A stretch of 64,000 nucleotides of DNA from Thermococcus siculi (GTDB lineage: Archaea; Methanobacteriota_B; Thermococci; Thermococcales; Thermococcaceae). Made by a program: the position numbers and the translations under genes. The stretch's first letter is position 1, and every line of letters starts with the position of its first letter. The stretch lies in assembly GCF_002214505.1 (NCBI RefSeq), contig NZ_CP015103.1, positions 124,001 to 188,000 on the forward strand, written 5' to 3'. Under the pieces are notes generated by a model. The model was given only the letters and a program-made list of their open reading frames with translations, searched no databases and was not told the origin of the DNA. Below, one piece after another: positions 22,865 to 32,053 of this stretch.

Positions 22865-22879
22865 AGGCCCTTGGCCTTC
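22863..22879 (+). promoter_or_regulatory. Hairpin covering the next gene's start codon
   Basis: GAAGGCC-ctt-GGCCTTC is a perfect 7-bp hairpin at the TBP stop codon. It encloses the TTG start (22871-22873) of the deacetylase-fold gene, so the mRNA may mask that start unless TBP is translated. Confidence 0.45.
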
Positions 22880-23875
22880 TCGGTTATCTATTCTCCAACT
22901 TTTCTCGAACACAGGCCATCCGGCTACCATCCCGAGAATCCAGAGAGGCTTTTGAAGGCAGTTGAGGGCCTGAAGAATGCTGGACTCTGGGAGAACGTTC
23001 TGGAACCGGAACCCGTTCCTGAGGAAGAACTGCTGAAGGTTCATTCAAAGGAGTACGTTGAACTCGTGAAAAACTCCAGCAGCGGCTTTAAATACATAGA
23101 CCCCGACACCTACGTTTCTCCCGGCACGTGGCATGCGGCTTTGAGGGCATTTGGGGCGGCCAGAAAAGCTGTAGAACTCGCGCTTGAGGAAAAAGGACTG
23201 TATCTGGCCCTCGTGAGGCCACCCGGTCATCACGCCGGAAAATCTGGAAGGGCATTCAGCGCGCCAACCCTGGGCTTCTGCATATTCAACAACGCGGCCT
23301 ACGCGGCGAAGGTGGCGGAGGAAAGAACCGGAAGGATTCTCGTCATCGACTTCGACGCACACCACGGCAATGGAACCCAGGAGATACTCTGGAAAGACCC
23401 AAAAGCCGTTCACATAGACCTCCACGAGCGGGACATCTATCCCGGGAGCGGCTACGAGCACGAGATTGGGGGCAAAGGCGCTGAGGGAACGAAGGTGAAC
23501 CTTCCGATGCCCCACTATGCAACGGACGATGACTACATCTTCGCCTGGAACGAGGTCGTTCTGCCGGTAATTGGGGAGTTCAAACCGAAGCTCATAGTCA
23601 TCTCCGCAGGCTTCGACGGATTTCACGGGGAGAACCTGACGACGCTCAGGTTGAGTGAACTCTTTTTCGAGCACGCCGGTGCGACCCTCTCGGATTATCC
23701 CCTCGCGGTGATCTTCGAGGGCGGCTATTCGATGGGGCTTGAAAGGGGCCTGCCGGCCTTTGCCAAGGGCTATCTGTCCGGAAAGGCAGGAGAACTTACG
23801 GTTAGGCCATCGTATGAGGCTCTGAAGGTTGTGGAGCGCGTGAGGGAAATCCACGGGGAGTGGTGGGAGCTGTAG
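22871..23875 (+). CDS. Histone-deacetylase-fold amidohydrolase
   Basis: A 334-residue member of the arginase/deacetylase superfamily (HDAC/acetylpolyamine amidohydrolase-like). The tandem active-site histidines are His120-His121 in RPPGHHAG, and the zinc site includes Asp162 and His164 in VIDFDAHHGNGTQ, with SAGFDGFHGE near residue 255. Archaeal members may deacylate polyamines or protein lysines such as Alba. The start is a TTG at 22871 inside a hairpin; no better start exists before conserved residues IYSPTFLEH. It is coupled to TBP with six bases between stop and start. The substrate is unproven. Confidence 0.87.
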   Translation: MAFSVIYSPTFLEHRPSGYHPENPERLLKAVEGLKNAGLWENVLEPEPVPEEELLKVHSKEYVELVKNSSSGFKYIDPDTYVSPGTWHAALRAFGAARKAVELALEEKGLYLALVRPPGHHAGKSGRAFSAPTLGFCIFNNAAYAAKVAEERTGRILVIDFDAHHGNGTQEILWKDPKAVHIDLHERDIYPGSGYEHEIGGKGAEGTKVNLPMPHYATDDDYIFAWNEVVLPVIGEFKPKLIVISAGFDGFHGENLTTLRLSELFFEHAGATLSDYPLAVIFEGGYSMGLERGLPAFAKGYLSGKAGELTVRPSYEALKVVERVREIHGEWWEL

Positions 23876-23910
23876 CTTACCCAGGGGTAAGTAACTTACC
23901 GGAGGGTAAG
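23876..23910. repeat. 35-bp paired palindrome, copy 1 (3' side of ATPase gene)
   Basis: Two CTTACC-spacer-GGTAAG palindromes stand in tandem, joined by TAA. Copy 1 begins one base after the deacetylase-fold stop codon and contains the stop codon of the ATPase gene (23896-23898 on the minus strand). It matches copy 2 at 29 of 35 positions in direct orientation; being near-palindromic it also matches in inverse. Confidence 0.85.
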
Positions 23911-25002
23911 TTGGAGTCCCCTTATGGCCTCCTGGACAACCGGATCCGGCAGGATATATTTCCTGCCTTTCTTTTCAAGGTAGCCGTACTTCACGAGGTT
24001 ATTAAGCAGATTTGAGAACTTTGCGTCGTTTATTGGCCCACCTTTGAACTCAACGTACTCCTTTATCGTGCTCCACGTCTCGTTGCCCATCGCCACCGCC
24101 CTGAGGATGATGCCGTATCTCCTACTGTAAGCGAGAAGCGTGGAGAGTTCCTCGCGGACGAGAGCCTGAGCCCTGTTGAAAAGTTCTTCGAGTGCCTCAT
24201 TCTCGGAGAGCTTCCGCACTCCCCTCAAATAGCCGTACATCGTCAGCCAGCCCACGATTCCATCAAGCCTATCAACGGCGCGCTCTATCTCCAATTCGTC
24301 CACAGCCATTCCAAGCTCGCCGAAGCCCTTTTGGAGGAAGTTGATGCTTTCATCCCTCCCGAACCTCTCGAGCACTATCTCTCCGGCATATCGGCCAAAG
24401 AGGGGCTTTTTGGGGTTCTCAAGGCCAAGGAAGTCGTGGAGCGTCCCAATTTCGGAGCCGGTGAGGACAAAGGTAAGGTTTGGGAGGTTATCAACGGCGT
24501 ATGCAATCAGGCCGTCGTACTGAATCCCGGAGAGCCTCAGATACTGGGCCTCGTCGAAGGCAAGTATAGCCCTCGTCCCCTCCTTCTCTGCCCAAAGGTT
24601 TATTTTCTCCAATATCTCGGCCAGGTCGGGCCTACTTTCAAATTCCACCTGAAATCCGGAGATTTTCAGCCCTTTTACGCTGCTCAGGACTTTTTCAAGC
24701 CTAAGTCTGAGGGCTTTGCTGGACGATATGGTTGAGAGCAATGAACCCAGGATTCTTCTCGCCAGAATCTCCTGGGGTATCGAGCCGTGGGTGAAGTACA
24801 GGGAGCGGACGTCGATCTTTGCATATGGCATGCCTGACTCAGTAAGGGCTACGTTGAGGAGGGAGCTCTTCCCGAGACGTCTGATGCCGAGGAGGAGAAC
24901 CATCCTTTCACCGAGATCTATGGCGCTCTGGAACTCCTGGAGTTCCCTTTCGCGATCATACAAATCCTCGCGCCGGCTCTTTGGCTGAAGGTCGAATAGC
25001 AA
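23896..25002 (-). CDS. Archaeal STAND-type ATPase with C-terminal winged helix
   Basis: A 368-residue protein of the archaeal ATPase family (PF01637). RRLGKSS (41-47) is the Walker A motif and ILAFDEAQYL (about 146-155, Asp150-Glu151) the Walker B. The C-terminal 90 residues (AVAMGNETWSTIKEYVEFKGG, then NLLNNLVKYGYLEKKGRKYIL) look like a winged helix that could bind DNA. The TTG start at 25002 directly abuts repeat copy 2, and the stop lies inside copy 1. The family is greatly expanded in Thermococcales, and its roles are mostly unknown. It lies downstream of the McrBC-type genes on the same strand. Confidence 0.8.
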   Translation of the reverse strand: MLFDLQPKSRREDLYDRERELQEFQSAIDLGERMVLLLGIRRLGKSSLLNVALTESGMPYAKIDVRSLYFTHGSIPQEILARRILGSLLSTISSSKALRLRLEKVLSSVKGLKISGFQVEFESRPDLAEILEKINLWAEKEGTRAILAFDEAQYLRLSGIQYDGLIAYAVDNLPNLTFVLTGSEIGTLHDFLGLENPKKPLFGRYAGEIVLERFGRDESINFLQKGFGELGMAVDELEIERAVDRLDGIVGWLTMYGYLRGVRKLSENEALEELFNRAQALVREELSTLLAYSRRYGIILRAVAMGNETWSTIKEYVEFKGGPINDAKFSNLLNNLVKYGYLEKKGRKYILPDPVVQEAIRGLQLTLR

Positions 25003-25037
25003 CTTACCCCACCGTAAGTAACTTACCCGGGGGTAAG
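25003..25037. repeat. 35-bp paired palindrome, copy 2 (5' side of ATPase gene)
   Basis: The second copy of the double CTTACC-spacer-GGTAAG palindrome. It lies between the ATPase TTG start and a minus-strand TATA box, so it covers the predicted transcription start and leader. The ribosome binding site (ggtgggg) is part of the repeat. Confidence 0.85.
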
Positions 25038-25046
25038 TTATAAGGG
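25037..25046 (-). promoter_or_regulatory. TATA box of the ATPase gene
   Basis: Read on the minus strand, cttataac stands directly before the palindrome repeat. It predicts transcription starting near 25015, within the repeat, a usual place for a repressor operator. Confidence 0.5.
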
Positions 25047-25062
25047 TTTCGAAAACGGGAAA

Positions 25063-27828
25063 TTAGCTGAAGCTCGCGAAGCCTATCTCATAAAGTTCGC
25101 GGAGCATGCGGAGAACTTTCCTAGCGGTATGTTTGAAGCGGAAGTTCTCCTGTTCTTTCTCCCAATTCTTTAGCATTTCAAGGAGCCTATCAAGCTTTAA
25201 GTATTCTACGTCGAGTGGGGAGTTGCCATCAAGACAGAGTTTAAGTACTTCCTTCAGCGGTTTCTCAAGCTTCTTTCTGTTGCCGTGGAACTTCGGGAGG
25301 ACTTTCATCAGCAGTGCCAGATCAAATATTTCATCGTCGCTCTCGAATTCGATGATCCCTTTTCCTCCGCTCTCTTTTGCGTTTTTGAAGAAGAGTGCAA
25401 TCTCATCAACAACGCGGTAGCCGAAGTGGAGATCGTAGGGTTCGAGGGCTCTGTTTAGCTCTTGTAGGATTTTCCAGTAATCATTAATAGTCTTGAGCTC
25501 ATTAACCGCCTCGTTCATCTGTTCCTTCTGAGAGGCGAGGAACCTTCCCTCGTGGCCTCTCAGGTCATCAAGTAATGCATCCCTTAAACCTTCAAAGTTC
25601 TCTGATGAGTTTTCGTTGGCAGGTGGGCACTTCTCAAGATCAACGTCATGGAACTCCACCACAAAGGCTCTGTCGAGAACTTTGGGGCTGAAGGAGTAAG
25701 TTGTCTCGTCCATATTGACGGTGCCGATGATGTAGAGATTCGGCGGGAGTTTAAGCACTCTGGGTATTCCTTCAAAAGCTTCAACCTCCCTGCTGTCGTG
25801 GAGCTTTATGCCCTCCCTCGTGAAACCTTTGTTATTTCTCCCGCTCTCAAGAACGCTCAGAAAGTCTGCGAAATAGTACTCCACATGAGCTAAATTCATC
25901 TCGTCGAGGAGAACGAAGTATGATTTTGAATTAGTGCTATTGTTCCGGTAGTCTTCTACCGCCCTTAGGAGGAAATCTAGAAGCTCGGTTCTGTGATACT
26001 CTCCAGTTAGCGGGTTGTAATATCCTAAAAGCGCCTTGGAGTCGCGCCAGTTCGGGCGGACGGAGAGGAAGAGGAAGCTCTTACTACTTGGATCTCCAAA
26101 TTTCAAGTTTTTAAAGGGAGCCACTCTTTTGAATCCCACTCTTAGGGACACTTCAGAAGCATCAATAGGTTCTATCAGTGGGATTATCTCAACCACTTTG
26201 AAAACCACGGCACTCCCATATTTTGAGTGGTGATTCTTAACAGCACTCTCAAACGTTTCGTTGTATTTTCCAAGATTCCACTTGAATCCCCGGGAGAGCT
26301 CACCTGCCTCTCTGAGGGCTTCTTCGGCTGAATATTTCTCTATTACCAGTGCCGCAGCTTTGGCCTTATTTTGATGTCCTATCCAGAAGACAAACGGTGG
26401 CTCAACGTTGCGGACTTCTCCCTCAGGACCCCATAATAATATCACGAATCTATTATCTTTTATGACTCTTTGAATCTCCTCGATAGAGTTCTCAAACTCA
26501 TCGTCTGTCCCCTCCCATTTGGAGAAAACGTTGGGTAGCTCATTAGCCCATATTGAACTCGTTAATTCGGCTAACTCCTGGGCTATCTTCGTTTTGCCTG
26601 TCCCAGTCAGGCTAGAGAGGATTACAAAACCCTTCGTCTTGAGGGCGGTGTAAAACTGAGAGACAAGGTGTTTTGGGTAGAGGTAGCCTTTTGAGGCAAA
26701 ATACTCATCCAACTTAACGACCCTTGTATCAATGCCTTCCTGGACGATCCCTAGCTTCTTCAGGACTTCAGGGGATATATCGATCAGATACACTCTCTCA
26801 AGCCCTCCCGAAGAGGGCAAACCTCTGACTTCAGAATATTTGAGAGGTTTATTCAGCTTTCTAAAGTTACCAAGTTTAACAACGTAGAACTTTCCATTTT
26901 TAGATTTGCTAAACCAACCCTCTGCAAATTCCCGGTAATCTTCAGTCCAAATCCCGGTTTCTTTAAAAAGCTCTATGACTTCTTCTTTTGTTTTTCCCTC
27001 CTTTGATGCCTCTTCTATAACTGACGAATATCCAACGATCTTTCTATTAACATCATGAAGCACTATATCCCCGACTTTTAACAGTCCCATCTTCCCCTCA
27101 TGACCGTTCCAGTATTTTTCATCTGCAGGAGACCAAAGAAAACGACCGACATGAGTCTTATCTAGATTCAAAAAATCTCTGTTACTTAGTGTTTTCTTCT
27201 TACCAAAAGGCTTTGTTATTTCCATGTAAACATAGGTTTTCCTATTACCCGAATCTACAATGTCTTTTCTGCTCTTTAGCCACCATCCAAAGTGATCTAC
27301 AATAACAAAGTTGATGTCCTGATGGGAACATTCCTCTTTGAACAGCATTTTTAATTCTTCGAGATGGGAGAGAACTTCTGAATACTTTGTTGGTTTTCCC
27401 CATCCTAGTTCCTGAAAGTACCAGTCAACAGTGTTGTTCCATGGAACAAAATGATTTGGATAATAAAAAGCCAGAGCCTCAGATATAAGCCCCCTACCTG
27501 CTCCTTTTATTTGTTTCCATCTCTCAAAGCGTTCATCAATATCTTCTAAAAGTTTTTCTGGAGTTGTTTCAATGATCTCTCTAAGGAACTTTTCCCAGAG
27601 ATTCTCCAAATCAGATGGAGTCTTGATGTGAAATCTAAGAGCATTTTTTCCAGAATGTAAGCGACGGAGAGCCTTTTTCAGAAGTCCATAATCGCCGGTA
27701 TTCCTAATTTCATTGAGAATTTGTCTAAACTCATGAATATTCTTGTCAGCCCATTCATTCTTCGCCTTGTTGAATTCGGTATGACAGTACTCCCTAATTA
27801 ATTCTCGAAGTTTAGTTTCACTTATCAT
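25063..27828 (-). CDS. McrB-like AAA+ restriction GTPase/ATPase with EVE domain
   Basis: A 921-residue motor subunit of a modification-dependent restriction system. A helical N-terminal domain (1-185) carries an HhH-like stretch (IKGAGRGLISEALAFY, 107-122). An EVE/PUA-like domain (about 198-360) is probably the modified-base reader, as in Thermococcus gammatolerans McrB. The AAA+ core has Walker A SLTGTGKT (406-413), Walker B YFVLLDEMN (637-645), the McrB-type continuation LAHVEYYFADF, and sensor GTVNMD (702-707). About 150 residues (430-580) are inserted between Walker A and VRPNWRDS. The start ATG overlaps the stop of the nuclease gene (ATGA). Codons are AT-richer than the neighbours, suggesting transfer. 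Confidence 0.88.
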   Translation of the reverse strand: MISETKLRELIREYCHTEFNKAKNEWADKNIHEFRQILNEIRNTGDYGLLKKALRRLHSGKNALRFHIKTPSDLENLWEKFLREIIETTPEKLLEDIDERFERWKQIKGAGRGLISEALAFYYPNHFVPWNNTVDWYFQELGWGKPTKYSEVLSHLEELKMLFKEECSHQDINFVIVDHFGWWLKSRKDIVDSGNRKTYVYMEITKPFGKKKTLSNRDFLNLDKTHVGRFLWSPADEKYWNGHEGKMGLLKVGDIVLHDVNRKIVGYSSVIEEASKEGKTKEEVIELFKETGIWTEDYREFAEGWFSKSKNGKFYVVKLGNFRKLNKPLKYSEVRGLPSSGGLERVYLIDISPEVLKKLGIVQEGIDTRVVKLDEYFASKGYLYPKHLVSQFYTALKTKGFVILSSLTGTGKTKIAQELAELTSSIWANELPNVFSKWEGTDDEFENSIEEIQRVIKDNRFVILLWGPEGEVRNVEPPFVFWIGHQNKAKAAALVIEKYSAEEALREAGELSRGFKWNLGKYNETFESAVKNHHSKYGSAVVFKVVEIIPLIEPIDASEVSLRVGFKRVAPFKNLKFGDPSSKSFLFLSVRPNWRDSKALLGYYNPLTGEYHRTELLDFLLRAVEDYRNNSTNSKSYFVLLDEMNLAHVEYYFADFLSVLESGRNNKGFTREGIKLHDSREVEAFEGIPRVLKLPPNLYIIGTVNMDETTYSFSPKVLDRAFVVEFHDVDLEKCPPANENSSENFEGLRDALLDDLRGHEGRFLASQKEQMNEAVNELKTINDYWKILQELNRALEPYDLHFGYRVVDEIALFFKNAKESGGKGIIEFESDDEIFDLALLMKVLPKFHGNRKKLEKPLKEVLKLCLDGNSPLDVEYLKLDRLLEMLKNWEKEQENFRFKHTARKVLRMLRELYEIGFASFS

Positions 27829-29444
27829 TCTTTCACCTCCGGTACAATCCTCAAATAGCCAACACCGCTCAATTCTCCAACCAAAACTTCCTCTAGGACA
27901 AATCTTTCAACCTTACCCTTATTCGCCTCAAAAAACACATTCCTACCGCCGGGATACAATACCACGGCAAACTTAGCACTTAACGCATCTCTGTACGTAT
28001 GCATCTTGTAAACGTCCTCTAGTTTTGCCCACGTCTCATAGTTTCCAGTTTTTTCTGCAATCTCAGTCTCTTCATCGAATTCTTCCACCCCTTTCGCTTC
28101 ATTCACAACATCGAGCTTGAATTTTGCATCGAATACACCCACTAGTGTGGTATCTTTTCGCTTAGGATCCCCTGTAAAGAGCGAAAAGTCTGGCCTCAGC
28201 GTCACGGAATAGCTCCATTTCTTAGGAACGAGTCGTTTGTTGTAGTAAAGACGCCAGCCGTTGTCGAATTCTGCGTAAACGTCTCCCTTTTCGGAGAGTT
28301 CGCCCGCAGGAAGCACGTGGATTTTGAGCTTTTTCTCCCCAAGAATTCCTCCAAGCTCCTCAACGAGCCTAAAGAACGCCCAGTATTCGTAGAGCTTGGC
28401 GATGTCCTTGTTGTCAATTGCTCTCTTCATCTCCTCAAAGAAAGGAACGTAAGCCGTGAACTCACGGTAGAGTTCGAGAAGGTCGCGATAGCCATCACCT
28501 TTCAGGAGCGTCTGCGAGGTGTAAGGGAAGAGATCCATATCACCAACGTCATCCCAGACCCCGTCGCTTGCGATGAACTCAAGCTCCCCGAGGATTTCTC
28601 TAATCGAGCCAACGTTAGCCGCCCTATTGTTCCAGAAGGAGTCAATGACGCGCTCGCTCCATTCGATGAGCAAACCGAGGAAATACTTGGCAAAGCGGTT
28701 TTCTGGAGTGTCAAAGCTCTCGTACTTCCTGAAGCCGAGAATTCTTGTGGGGGCGTAGCCGTTAAGGTGCTCAGCTATCAGGACTCCTTCTCCTGCAGGT
28801 GCTAGATACTCAGGGTGTTGCGCTATGGATAAGAGGGTTTCTGGGGTTATGTTGTCAATTTCATCCGGCCTCAGCCACTCATCTTCAACGATTAGCTTTC
28901 GCTTCATCCGACGGATCACGGTCTCAAAGGCACTGGTTATTCTTTCTCCATTCGAGCGAAGGTAGTGGTAGGCAAAGAGCTCGTTGATTGGCTCGTCACT
29001 CTCCGTGGTCGAGAAGTCAGTTGGAGATTTCAGAGAGAAGGGAATAGTAGAAGAGATTTTTACAAGTTCCCCTATAAGGCTCCCTACTAGAGTGTCGAAT
29101 GCGTCTATTAACTCATCTATGCTATCTGACGATAAACACTTTTCAGAATCGGATATCCCCAGTATTTTCCCTACCTTCCTTGAAAGGACAAGAATTGGTA
29201 TAGCACGCCCATCTTCAAGTCTTATCTCTGACAGTCCTACGTAGTTTGAGTATCTGAATTTGTATCTATCAGCAATTTTTTTGATTTCTAGGCCATGTAT
29301 CTCAAACTCAAGAGATGATTTCACGTAGTAATCCACCCATTCAAAAAGAATCAACCTCTGTCCATCATAGAATGCATTGGGCCATTTCTCTTCAGAGTAT
29401 ATCTCGAGGGTATCCAGAACCCGCTGAACAGGTTCCCAAGGCAT
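27825..29444 (-). CDS. McrC-like nuclease with DUF2357 and PD-(D/E)XK domains
   Basis: A 539-residue partner of the McrB-like motor. The N-terminal two-thirds resemble DUF2357, including TPENRFAKYFLGLLIEWSE (246-264). The C-terminal nuclease of the PD-(D/E)XK type shows LYEYW (Glu353), LRPDFSL (Asp419) and VGVFDAKF (Asp439, Lys441), followed by DVYKMHTYRDAL. It likely cuts DNA when the motor binds modified or foreign DNA. It is encoded first, with GGTG before ATG 29444, opposite to the usual mcrB-mcrC order. The AT-rich codon use matches the McrB gene. Confidence 0.82.
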   Translation of the reverse strand: MPWEPVQRVLDTLEIYSEEKWPNAFYDGQRLILFEWVDYYVKSSLEFEIHGLEIKKIADRYKFRYSNYVGLSEIRLEDGRAIPILVLSRKVGKILGISDSEKCLSSDSIDELIDAFDTLVGSLIGELVKISSTIPFSLKSPTDFSTTESDEPINELFAYHYLRSNGERITSAFETVIRRMKRKLIVEDEWLRPDEIDNITPETLLSIAQHPEYLAPAGEGVLIAEHLNGYAPTRILGFRKYESFDTPENRFAKYFLGLLIEWSERVIDSFWNNRAANVGSIREILGELEFIASDGVWDDVGDMDLFPYTSQTLLKGDGYRDLLELYREFTAYVPFFEEMKRAIDNKDIAKLYEYWAFFRLVEELGGILGEKKLKIHVLPAGELSEKGDVYAEFDNGWRLYYNKRLVPKKWSYSVTLRPDFSLFTGDPKRKDTTLVGVFDAKFKLDVVNEAKGVEEFDEETEIAEKTGNYETWAKLEDVYKMHTYRDALSAKFAVVLYPGGRNVFFEANKGKVERFVLEEVLVGELSGVGYLRIVPEVKE

Positions 29445-29499: not shown

Positions 29500-30117
29500 T
29501 CAAAGCCCCAGAATCTCCTTTGCGGCCTTTATTCCAAGGTCGAAGGCCTTCATGTTCATGTCGACGGCCTTCGGCGGGACGCTGAGCCTTATCACTTCCC
29601 TGACGTGCTCCGCATCGAGCGGGAACTCGGGGATCTGCGTCAGCGCACCGATGAGGACGGTGTTGGTGGTTATGACGTGGCCTGCTTGGGCGGCTAGTTC
29701 TTCCGCGTTGAAACCTATCCACTTGCCCCTGAACTCCTCTTCCACGATCTTCTTTATCTCGTCGATCTCCGGGTAGCGGGCCTTGCCCATCGAAACCTGG
29801 ACCGGGACGATGGGCTTGGTGTTGGCGACGACCATTCCGCCCTGCTTGAGGTGGTTGATGTAGCGGAGCGCTTCCACAGGCTCGAAGGACAGTATGACGT
29901 CGCCCTTTCCTTCAGGAACCATCGAGCCGTAAACCTCGTCACCGAAGCGGACGTATGAGACGACGCTTCCAAAGCGCTGGCTCATTCCGTGAACCTCACC
30001 CATCCTCACCTTGTAGCCGGCGTGAAGGGCGGCCCAGCCGAGTATGTTTGCCGCTGTCAGAACACCCTGGCCGCCGACACCGGTGATGACTATGTTGTAC
30101 TCCCTAATCGGCTTCAT
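29500..30117 (-). CDS. iorB: Indolepyruvate:ferredoxin oxidoreductase, beta subunit
   Basis: A 205-residue subunit of the enzyme that oxidatively decarboxylates aryl pyruvates (from Trp, Phe, Tyr) to aryl-acetyl-CoA with ferredoxin as acceptor. The motif [20 protein letters not shown] (8-27) and [19 protein letters not shown] are characteristic of the gamma-domain of 2-oxoacid oxidoreductases. The ATG at 30117 overlaps the iorA stop. The product AcdA and IorA are encoded just upstream, as in Pyrococcus furiosus. The enzyme is oxygen-sensitive and cytoplasmic. Confidence 0.93.
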
Positions 30118-32053
30118 GCCTCTCCCTCCTCTTCGGGCTTGAAGGCATCGAAAGGACAGATCTGCGCACATCCGCCGCAGCCCCAGCACATGCTGGGTTC
30201 TATCCTCGCCTGCTTCTTCTCCTCGTCCCAGTAGATGGCCGGACAGCCGTAGGCGTTGATACATATCTTACAGCCGGTACATGCATCCTCGTCGACGTAG
30301 TAGATCGGCCACTTCTCGCCCCTGCGCCTCATCTGGCCTATCTTGTAGAGGGCACAGACCTGCCTCGACACGACGACGCTGACTCCCTCAACTTCGAGGG
30401 CCTTCTTTACCGTCTCGTAGGTGGCCTTTATGTCGTAGGGGTCGACCACTGCCACGAAGTCCGCGCCCATCGCCTTAGCGACGTCCTCGATGGGTATCCT
30501 CTTGCCCATGCCGTGCGGCGTCTGGCCCGTGCTCGGGTTGGGCTGGTCGCCGGTCATTGCCGTGACGAGGTTGTCGAGGACGACTATGAGAACGTTGGAG
30601 CGGTTGTAGATGGCGTTCGCCAAAGCCGGAAGTCCGGTGTGGAAGAACGTCGAGTCACCTATTGTGGCGACGATGACCTTCTTCTCCTTCTTCCTCTGCT
30701 CCTCGCTTATCGAACCGTGCTGGGCAATCTCAAGTCCGTGGGCGATGCCTATAGAGCCGCCCATTGCGACGGTTGTGTCAACCGCGTTGAGAGGCGGGAG
30801 CAGTCCGAGGGTGTAACAGCCGATGTCGCTCGGGTAGATGCCCCTAGCTCTCGTGGCTTTCTTTATGGCGTAGAAGCTGTTCCTGTGCGGACAGGCCGGA
30901 CAGAGGCTCGGTGGCCTCGGCGGGACTATCTCAAGAGCCTTCTGGTACTTAGCGTCAAGCTCCTCGTAGTTCAGTGGAGTCTCGATGCCGAGGAACTGGG
31001 CTATGGCGGTAACCGCTCTCCTGGGGTCATCTCGTAAACGCGCGGAACTAGGTCCTTTCCGTGGATCGGGATTCTCAGCCCCCTGTCGTAGGCCCAGGTC
31101 TTGACCTGCTCCTCGACGACCGGCTCAAGCTCCTCAACGATGAGAACCTTCTCGAGACCGTCCATGAACTTCTCGAGCAGGCCGTATGGAACGGGGAACG
31201 GGGTTCCGAGCTTGAGAACCTTGACGTTCTCGACGCCGAGCCAGTGTAGGGCCTCCTTGACGTAGGCGTAGCTGAGGCCAGGAGCGATTATACCGACCTT
31301 TGCGTTCTCGTCACCTTCAATCCAGTTGAAGGGCATGTCGTTGAACTCTTCCCTTATCTTTTCGATCTTCTCGAGTATCTGCGGGTGGAAGCGCCTCGCG
31401 TTCGAGGGAACGTCGACGAACCTGCTCGGATCCTTGTTGAACTTCCCGAACTTCCTCTTTGCCTGCTTTATCTCCTCCGGAAGCTCACCGAGGACGACCT
31501 CTCCCCTGGCGTGGGAGCTTCTGGTGGTGGTTCTAAGGATGACAAAGTGCTTGAACTTCTCGCTCAGCTCGAAGGCGTACTTTGTCATCTCCTTGGCCTC
31601 GTGGGGGCTGCTCGGCTCCAGAACCGGGACGTTGGCGAACTTCGCGTAAACGCGCGTGTCCTGCTCGTTCTGGCTGCTCCACATGCTCGGGTCGTCGGCG
31701 ACCATTATGACGAATCCGCCCTCGACGCCCATGCCAACGGAGCTGAGGAATGTGTCGGCGGCGACGTTAAGTCCAACGTGCTTCATGGCAGTCATTGCCC
31801 TGAGGCCGCTCCAGGCCGCGGCCAGAGCGGTCTCAAAGGCCACCTTCTCGTTGGTGGAGTACTCCATGTAAACTCCTGCCTTCTTGGCGACGATCGCCAT
31901 AGTATCGGTCAGCTCCGAACTCGGCGTTCCTGGATATGCCGCGTAAACAGCTATGTTCGCCTCAAGGGCTCCCCTGGCTATTGCCTGGTTTCCAAGCAGG
32001 AGAACCTTCTCCCCGGGCTTGTCCCACAAAACCATATCAGTAACTTTCGCCAT
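30114..32053 (-). pseudogene. iorA: Indolepyruvate:ferredoxin oxidoreductase, alpha subunit, frameshifted
   Basis: The gene is read in two frames: 32053 to about 31024 encodes the N-terminal 345 residues, and the rest to 30114 encodes the C-terminal half with the TPP site (GDSTFFHTGLPALANAIYN) and two ferredoxin-type motifs ([26 protein letters not shown]). The total of 1940 bases is one short of 647 codons. The shift lies at [15 protein letters not shown]: four C where five (ACC CCC AGG AGA) would keep the frame; unshifted translation stops after GERLPP. It could be a real mutation or a homopolymer sequence error. It lies in the operon acdA-iorA-iorB. Confidence 0.9.

Follow-up and report, generated by a model that had tools for sequence, protein, structure and literature searches.

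Private double palindromes at both ends of an ATPase gene in Thermococcus siculi suggest a self-recognising gene unit

RAYT proteins are HUH-type transposases whose genes are flanked by their own co-evolving REP palindromes, with REPs also scattered through the genome. The ATPase gene of Thermococcus siculi that we describe here is similar in being flanked by its own palindromes, which evolve together with the gene. It differs in that the ATPase has no nuclease domain and that just two sites are present in the genome, none of them scattered. Nor does the ATPase unit resemble an insertion sequence or transposon: the domain search revealed no transposase or nuclease, and there are not several copies in the genome. 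Orc1/Cdc6 proteins with their ORBs have an arrangement that the T. siculi ATPase shares, although we make no claim of homology on this basis. Haloarchaeal cdc6E has its own binding elements at its origin and also downstream of the gene, the latter likely having a titrating role (PMC3936714). With oriC2 and the downstream ORB-rich region, cdc6E is likewise an AAA+ ATPase having its own repeats both near and downstream of the gene; however, it is a replication initiator, whereas there is no evidence of an origin at the T. siculi locus. The promoter of the autoregulated Rv2827c/AbiEi toxin-antitoxin system contains two inverted repeats to which the product of the system binds (PMC7319586). By contrast, the T. 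siculi ATPase has no visible partner gene and has a second copy at the 3' end. As for the protein itself, SSO1545 (2FNA) and the P. abyssi Walker-type ATPase (2QEN) belong to the same PF01637 family over their full length, and SSO1545 is structurally related to Orc1/Cdc6, combining AAA+ with a winged helix (PMC4599002). The literature searched gives no function for this large archaeal ATPase family, and the available portions of the literature on SSO1545 and 2QEN make no mention of private palindromes at two ends or of clean ORF loss.

The window, that is, the whole stretch of 64,000 nucleotides of T. siculi DNA that was analysed, contains the following features at this locus:

22871..23875, plus strand: histone-deacetylase-family (HDAC) gene, convergent neighbour and anchor for gene-less sites
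23876..23910, minus strand: 3' copy of the double palindrome, supplying the ATPase stop codon and abutting the stop of the convergent HDAC gene
23896..25002, minus strand: STAND/AAA+-type ATPase ORF (PF01637), TTG start, 368 aa
23956..24123, minus strand: C-terminal winged helix (Pfam MCM_C, E 2.4e-9, residues 293-348), the presumed DNA-reading part
25003..25037, minus strand: 5' copy of the double palindrome, operator-like, spanning from the TATA box end to the start codon
25007..25013, minus strand: SD-like GGTGGGG within the 5' copy (2 changes in 156 cells), putative in its role
25038..25051, minus strand: BRE/TATA-like putative promoter CGAAACCCTTATAA, from the upstream column profile
25063..27828, minus strand: McrB-like gene, PADLOC PDC-M26A match
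27825..29444, minus strand: McrC-like gene, DUF2357 and PDDEXK_7
29500..30120, minus strand: conserved gene that we take to be IorB, the other anchor of the locus

The ATPase matches PF01637 with 49.4 bits (curated cut-off 33.2), and 16 genes of the T. siculi genome score above this cut-off. Only the ATPase and winged-helix domains were found in the ORF; the domain search revealed no transposase, nuclease or dedicated recombinase in the unit, and PADLOC matches of the ATPase are weak (about 1e-3). The match to the solved homologs 2QEN (E 8e-67) and 2FNA (E 4e-49) extends over the full length, and 2QEN, judged by eye, resembles the paralogous group OG8. A protein search of 94 Thermococcaceae genomes yielded 28 orthologs, which we refer to as OG1; besides the T. 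siculi copy, their identity is 65-81%, and both Walker A (GIRRLGKSS) and Walker B (AFDEAQYLR) are conserved. An earlier note on this DNA had drawn attention to the adjoining McrBC-type module. That neighbour is real, yet the McrB-like gene adjoins just 11 of the 28 orthologs and is absent from the others, so that McrBC was rejected as a constant partner of the ATPase. The McrBC-like pair (25063-29444) shares the locus independently of the ATPase, and in three genomes having no ATPase ortholog (G059, G027, G030) an McrC-like gene adjoins IorB.

Each end of the ATPase ORF carries a 35-bp double palindrome (23876-23910 and 25003-25037) with the architecture CTTAC-N6-GTAAG, 3 nt, CTTAC-N6-GTAAG. 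We reproduced the coordinates and the 29/35 identity reported in the earlier note, as well as the position of the stop codon within the first copy and the abutment of the second on the TTG start. The copies had been described as lying in direct orientation. The direct alignment does give 29/35, but the inverted one gives 29/35 too, and since each copy is itself near-palindromic, the two orientations are indistinguishable. In the complete 2,029,167-bp genome CTTAC-N6-GTAAG occurs at four sites, which are the four palindromes of the two copies; the reversed control pattern has no match in the same genome, and a 35-mer control allowing up to 2 mismatches has none in the 94 genomes. The repeat might have turned up at unrelated sites, as the earlier note cautioned; in the genome it did not, and a genome-wide element was rejected, as only the one pair is present. 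A looser double pattern adds two sites: at 901362 the OG2-type site of a paralog, and at 640334 an eroded one of the OG8 type.

Across the orthologs, the motif is private to the ATPase gene and near-invariant at the 5' end; 18 of the 28 also have a matching 3' copy. In T. siculi, the 5' copy directly follows TTATAA and ends exactly at the TTG start. By a strict pattern it was found in 26 of the 28 orthologs, and all 26 copies directly adjoin the start codon, at a distance of 0 bases; the remaining two have either a contig edge inside the 5' copy (L044) or a damaged start region (L052). Its arms show only 5 changes in 520 cells. The TATA-like CCCTTATAA ahead of the copy is conserved as well, and conservation does not extend beyond about 14 bases upstream. 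The second palindrome is imperfect and is conserved in this form (CTTACGGTGGGGTAAG), plausibly because the SD-like GGTGGGG may share the site. We read the 5' copy as an operator because it is private, lies over the promoter, is conserved and varies with the protein group; a gene-restricted palindrome over a promoter, the hallmark used here for an operator, is what the 5' copy presents. In other words, it may be an autoregulatory operator of the gene's own promoter, with the ATPase predicted to bind its own palindromes via the C-terminal winged helix. The earlier note took this to be "not a normal operator"; that does not hold for the start copy, whose location is the one expected of an operator. 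The other suggestion made there, a site recognised by the ATPase's own winged helix, agrees with a motif that is private, promoter-overlapping, conserved across genera and group-dependent; the binding itself is predicted from sequence.

The 18 3' copies score 8.7-55 bits, compared with a best score of -13.4 for gene-interior windows (n=798). In four orthologs (L042, L049-L051) the 3' copy is absent, and it is eroded in several others. The earlier note would have counted such orthologs against its readings; they show that the 3' copy is not essential, but it is still common. Among the 18 copies, 4.4% of the arm cells are changed, compared with 23% of those in the middle and spacer, a difference whose significance is overstated by the p-value, given that the sequences are related. 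In L034 the 3' copy is nearly of the 5' type, and conversion of one copy by the other could account for part of the arm conservation. The ATPase ORF and the 3' copy overlap by 15 bp in T. siculi. In OG1 as a whole the stop codon takes different positions within the repeat (offsets -34, -19, -15 and 0), and the repeat therefore functions at the level of DNA rather than as part of the coding sequence. Because it is motif-matched and its arms are conserved, we read the 3' copy as a second binding site of the same protein, which might serve looping across the ORF or titration. Terminators or RNA hairpins that are alike by chance would also be palindromic, and one of the two copies does lie between convergent genes. 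However, each group has its own sequence, with a match between the two ends; the 3' copy is not directly followed by a T-run; and most of the 5' copy should be untranscribed, judging by the position of the TATA box. We consider hairpins of this kind highly improbable. The explanation that we favour, and regard as fairly probable, is a self-referential unit: an ATPase with a winged helix, for which the genome offers matching sites solely at the two ends of the ATPase's own ORF.

The earlier note, whose readings are supported in part, recognised less than the full extent of the pattern, which encompasses several orthologous groups with different palindromes. The double palindrome is not, as might have been supposed from that note, a general mark of PF01637 genes, since each subgroup has its own sequence. 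Three of the related groups also have a matched 3' copy: OG2 (CTTGC type) in 10 of 25 loci, OG3 (CACCAG type) in 10 of 15 and OG8 (CTTAT/CTTAC type) in 4 to 6 of about 20. OG4 has the start copy only, with a 3' copy in 0 of 24 loci. For 8 OG2 cases and 4 OG8 loci, the 3' copy starts right at the stop codon; that of OG3 begins 3-6 bp past it. OG2 is found with several different flanks. Close T. siculi paralogs carry similarly built palindromes of other sequence over the start. At L013 these are GTATCGGTACCGATAC-TTA-GTATCGGAGGCGATAC and at L016 GTAATGGGGGCGTTAC-TTA-GTAACGGGGGCATTAC; in L017 the start carries a single CACCAG-TAA-CTGGTG, repeated directly past the stop, and L015 has CTTGC/GCAAG palindromes at both start and stop. 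More distant paralogs have different upstream palindromes or none that are obvious. The recognition-helix residues differ by group as well (NDAKFS, NDSNFS, DDKNFS, TNARLS and others), and such group-specific pairs of palindrome and recognition helix make a ready set for studying how DNA-reading specificity changes. More generally, private two-ended sites provide a concrete, testable handle on what PF01637 proteins bind. A Micrarchaeota homolog with 32% identity (L213 3845-5042) is preceded by a 22-bp palindrome, a near-identical version of which lies shortly after the stop, and in homologs from Desulfurococcales/Pyrodictiaceae the start carries a double palindrome of the form 16-3-16. An OG3 palindrome located 3' of OG7 genes (L103, L104, L130) was considered as a mismatch between group and motif and rejected, as the flanks suggest a neighbouring OG3 gene-less site. 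Two isolated OG8-type double palindromes are also worth pointing out. One (L153 3001-3035, genome G022) lies 1.5 kb past the stop of an OG8 gene. The other, eroded and with no adjoining ATPase gene (G000 contig 640334-640368; L229 1535-1569), is probably an old gene-less site.

In several lineages the ORF is missing with one copy left, and the clearest cases retain the promoter followed by a chimera of the start and stop copies. G016 and G023 have the OG1 promoter, next to it one double palindrome, and after that the sequence of the 3' neighbour. The promoter side is 94.5-95% identical over 400 bp to the filled locus of G044 and the other side 91.5-92% identical to that of G042, and within the copy the first palindrome is of the 5' type with 3'-type sequence after it. 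G051 has the promoter and one copy, which matches the 3' copy of G035. Five further genomes (G019, G043, G062, G041, G070) keep one copy with an eroded or changed promoter, and six (G015, G031, G036, G054, G058, G071) have partial or eroded remnants. Most gene-less sites were found by a motif search, which favours intact ones; the less biased part is an IorB-anchored scan of 30 genomes, in which nine have an IorB-HDAC junction without a clear copy. These nine may represent secondary total loss. A tree of the HDAC gene from 35 loci requires 7 changes of the scar state, and supported branches force at least 4 of these. As the chimeric one-copy scars show, the pair of copies turns the ORF into a unit that can be excised. 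Under the self-referential reading, excision would proceed by recombination or slippage between the copies, carried out by host enzymes. With these scars one can address whether a protein lacking a recombinase of its own is able to frame its gene as a unit that is excised or swapped.

ORF-less sites were observed in OG2 and OG4 too. Six OG4 loci (L168, L169, L170, L171, L173, L174) keep the promoter and operator with the ATPase ORF gone and the next conserved gene, probably argS, nearby; at the clearer ones 23-41 bp of unrelated sequence separate the operator from that gene. None of the filled OG4 loci examined carries a 3' copy, so the losses cannot all be put down to recombination between two copies. 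The ORF-less OG4 operators could point to 3' copies that were formerly present, or something could favour operator retention.

Gene-less sites are frequent at one OG3 locus, where the filled and empty states require 8 changes on a flank tree built with FastTree, compared with a mean of 7.8 for shuffled labels. A rival reading, overlapping with ours, differs by giving the two-ended layout no further role: the gene would be plainly autoregulated, the 3' copy would act in titration or as a roadblock only, and gene-less loci would be chance deletions between short repeats. It is in line with a 5' copy covering both TATA and start, with no other sites in the genome, with an AAA+ plus winged helix protein as in Orc1/Cdc6, to which SSO1545 is structurally related (PMC4599002), and with the cdc6E precedent (PMC3936714). 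Nonetheless, it leaves unexplained both the 3' copy at the stop codon in several groups and the high turnover at the OG3 locus, and we see it as possible, if on the improbable side. The pattern is more suggestive of a self-recognising gene unit than of an ordinary regulator.

A second rival, among the two readings offered in the earlier note, is a cassette capable of moving or recombining by way of its ends. The palindromes would then be recombination sites, and a circular ORF-plus-copy would enter a promoter with a single copy, integron-like, the ATPase serving its own spread. Gene-less promoter-plus-one-copy loci in several lineages agree with this proposal, as do the precise filled and empty states, the several flanks of OG2 and the OG3 states being as scattered as shuffled labels. 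In OG3, filled G061 is nested among empty G044, G033 and G031, which implies either one gain or three losses. The pair L109-L110 has a similarity of 0.96 inside (ORF and operator) and 0.79 outside, with breakpoints at -77 and +24, and L077-L082 shows the reverse, the flanks being more alike than the ORF and operator. On the other hand, the unit has no recombinase or nuclease, and at the nine IorB-HDAC junctions without a clear copy the copy may not have been a pre-existing target. In a breakpoint scan of 176 pairs, 83 were significant, and only 5 of these had their two breakpoints at the ends of the ORF. The motif matched nothing in viral contigs, and the protein matched nothing in plasmid and phage records. 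Exchange of ORF-sized segments is therefore no more than suggestive: it looked clear in hand-picked pairs, but the systematic scan gave no strong excess at ORF ends. We consider the cassette rather unlikely. The general form of the idea, minimal self-recognising mobile units that are excised between copies and re-inserted at promoter-plus-one-copy loci, with a private site per subgroup, is in our opinion unlikely. Finally, an OG1 gene fragment in G063 has three tandem identical palindromes at its 3' end (L142 180-233), possibly the result of unequal exchange between copies.
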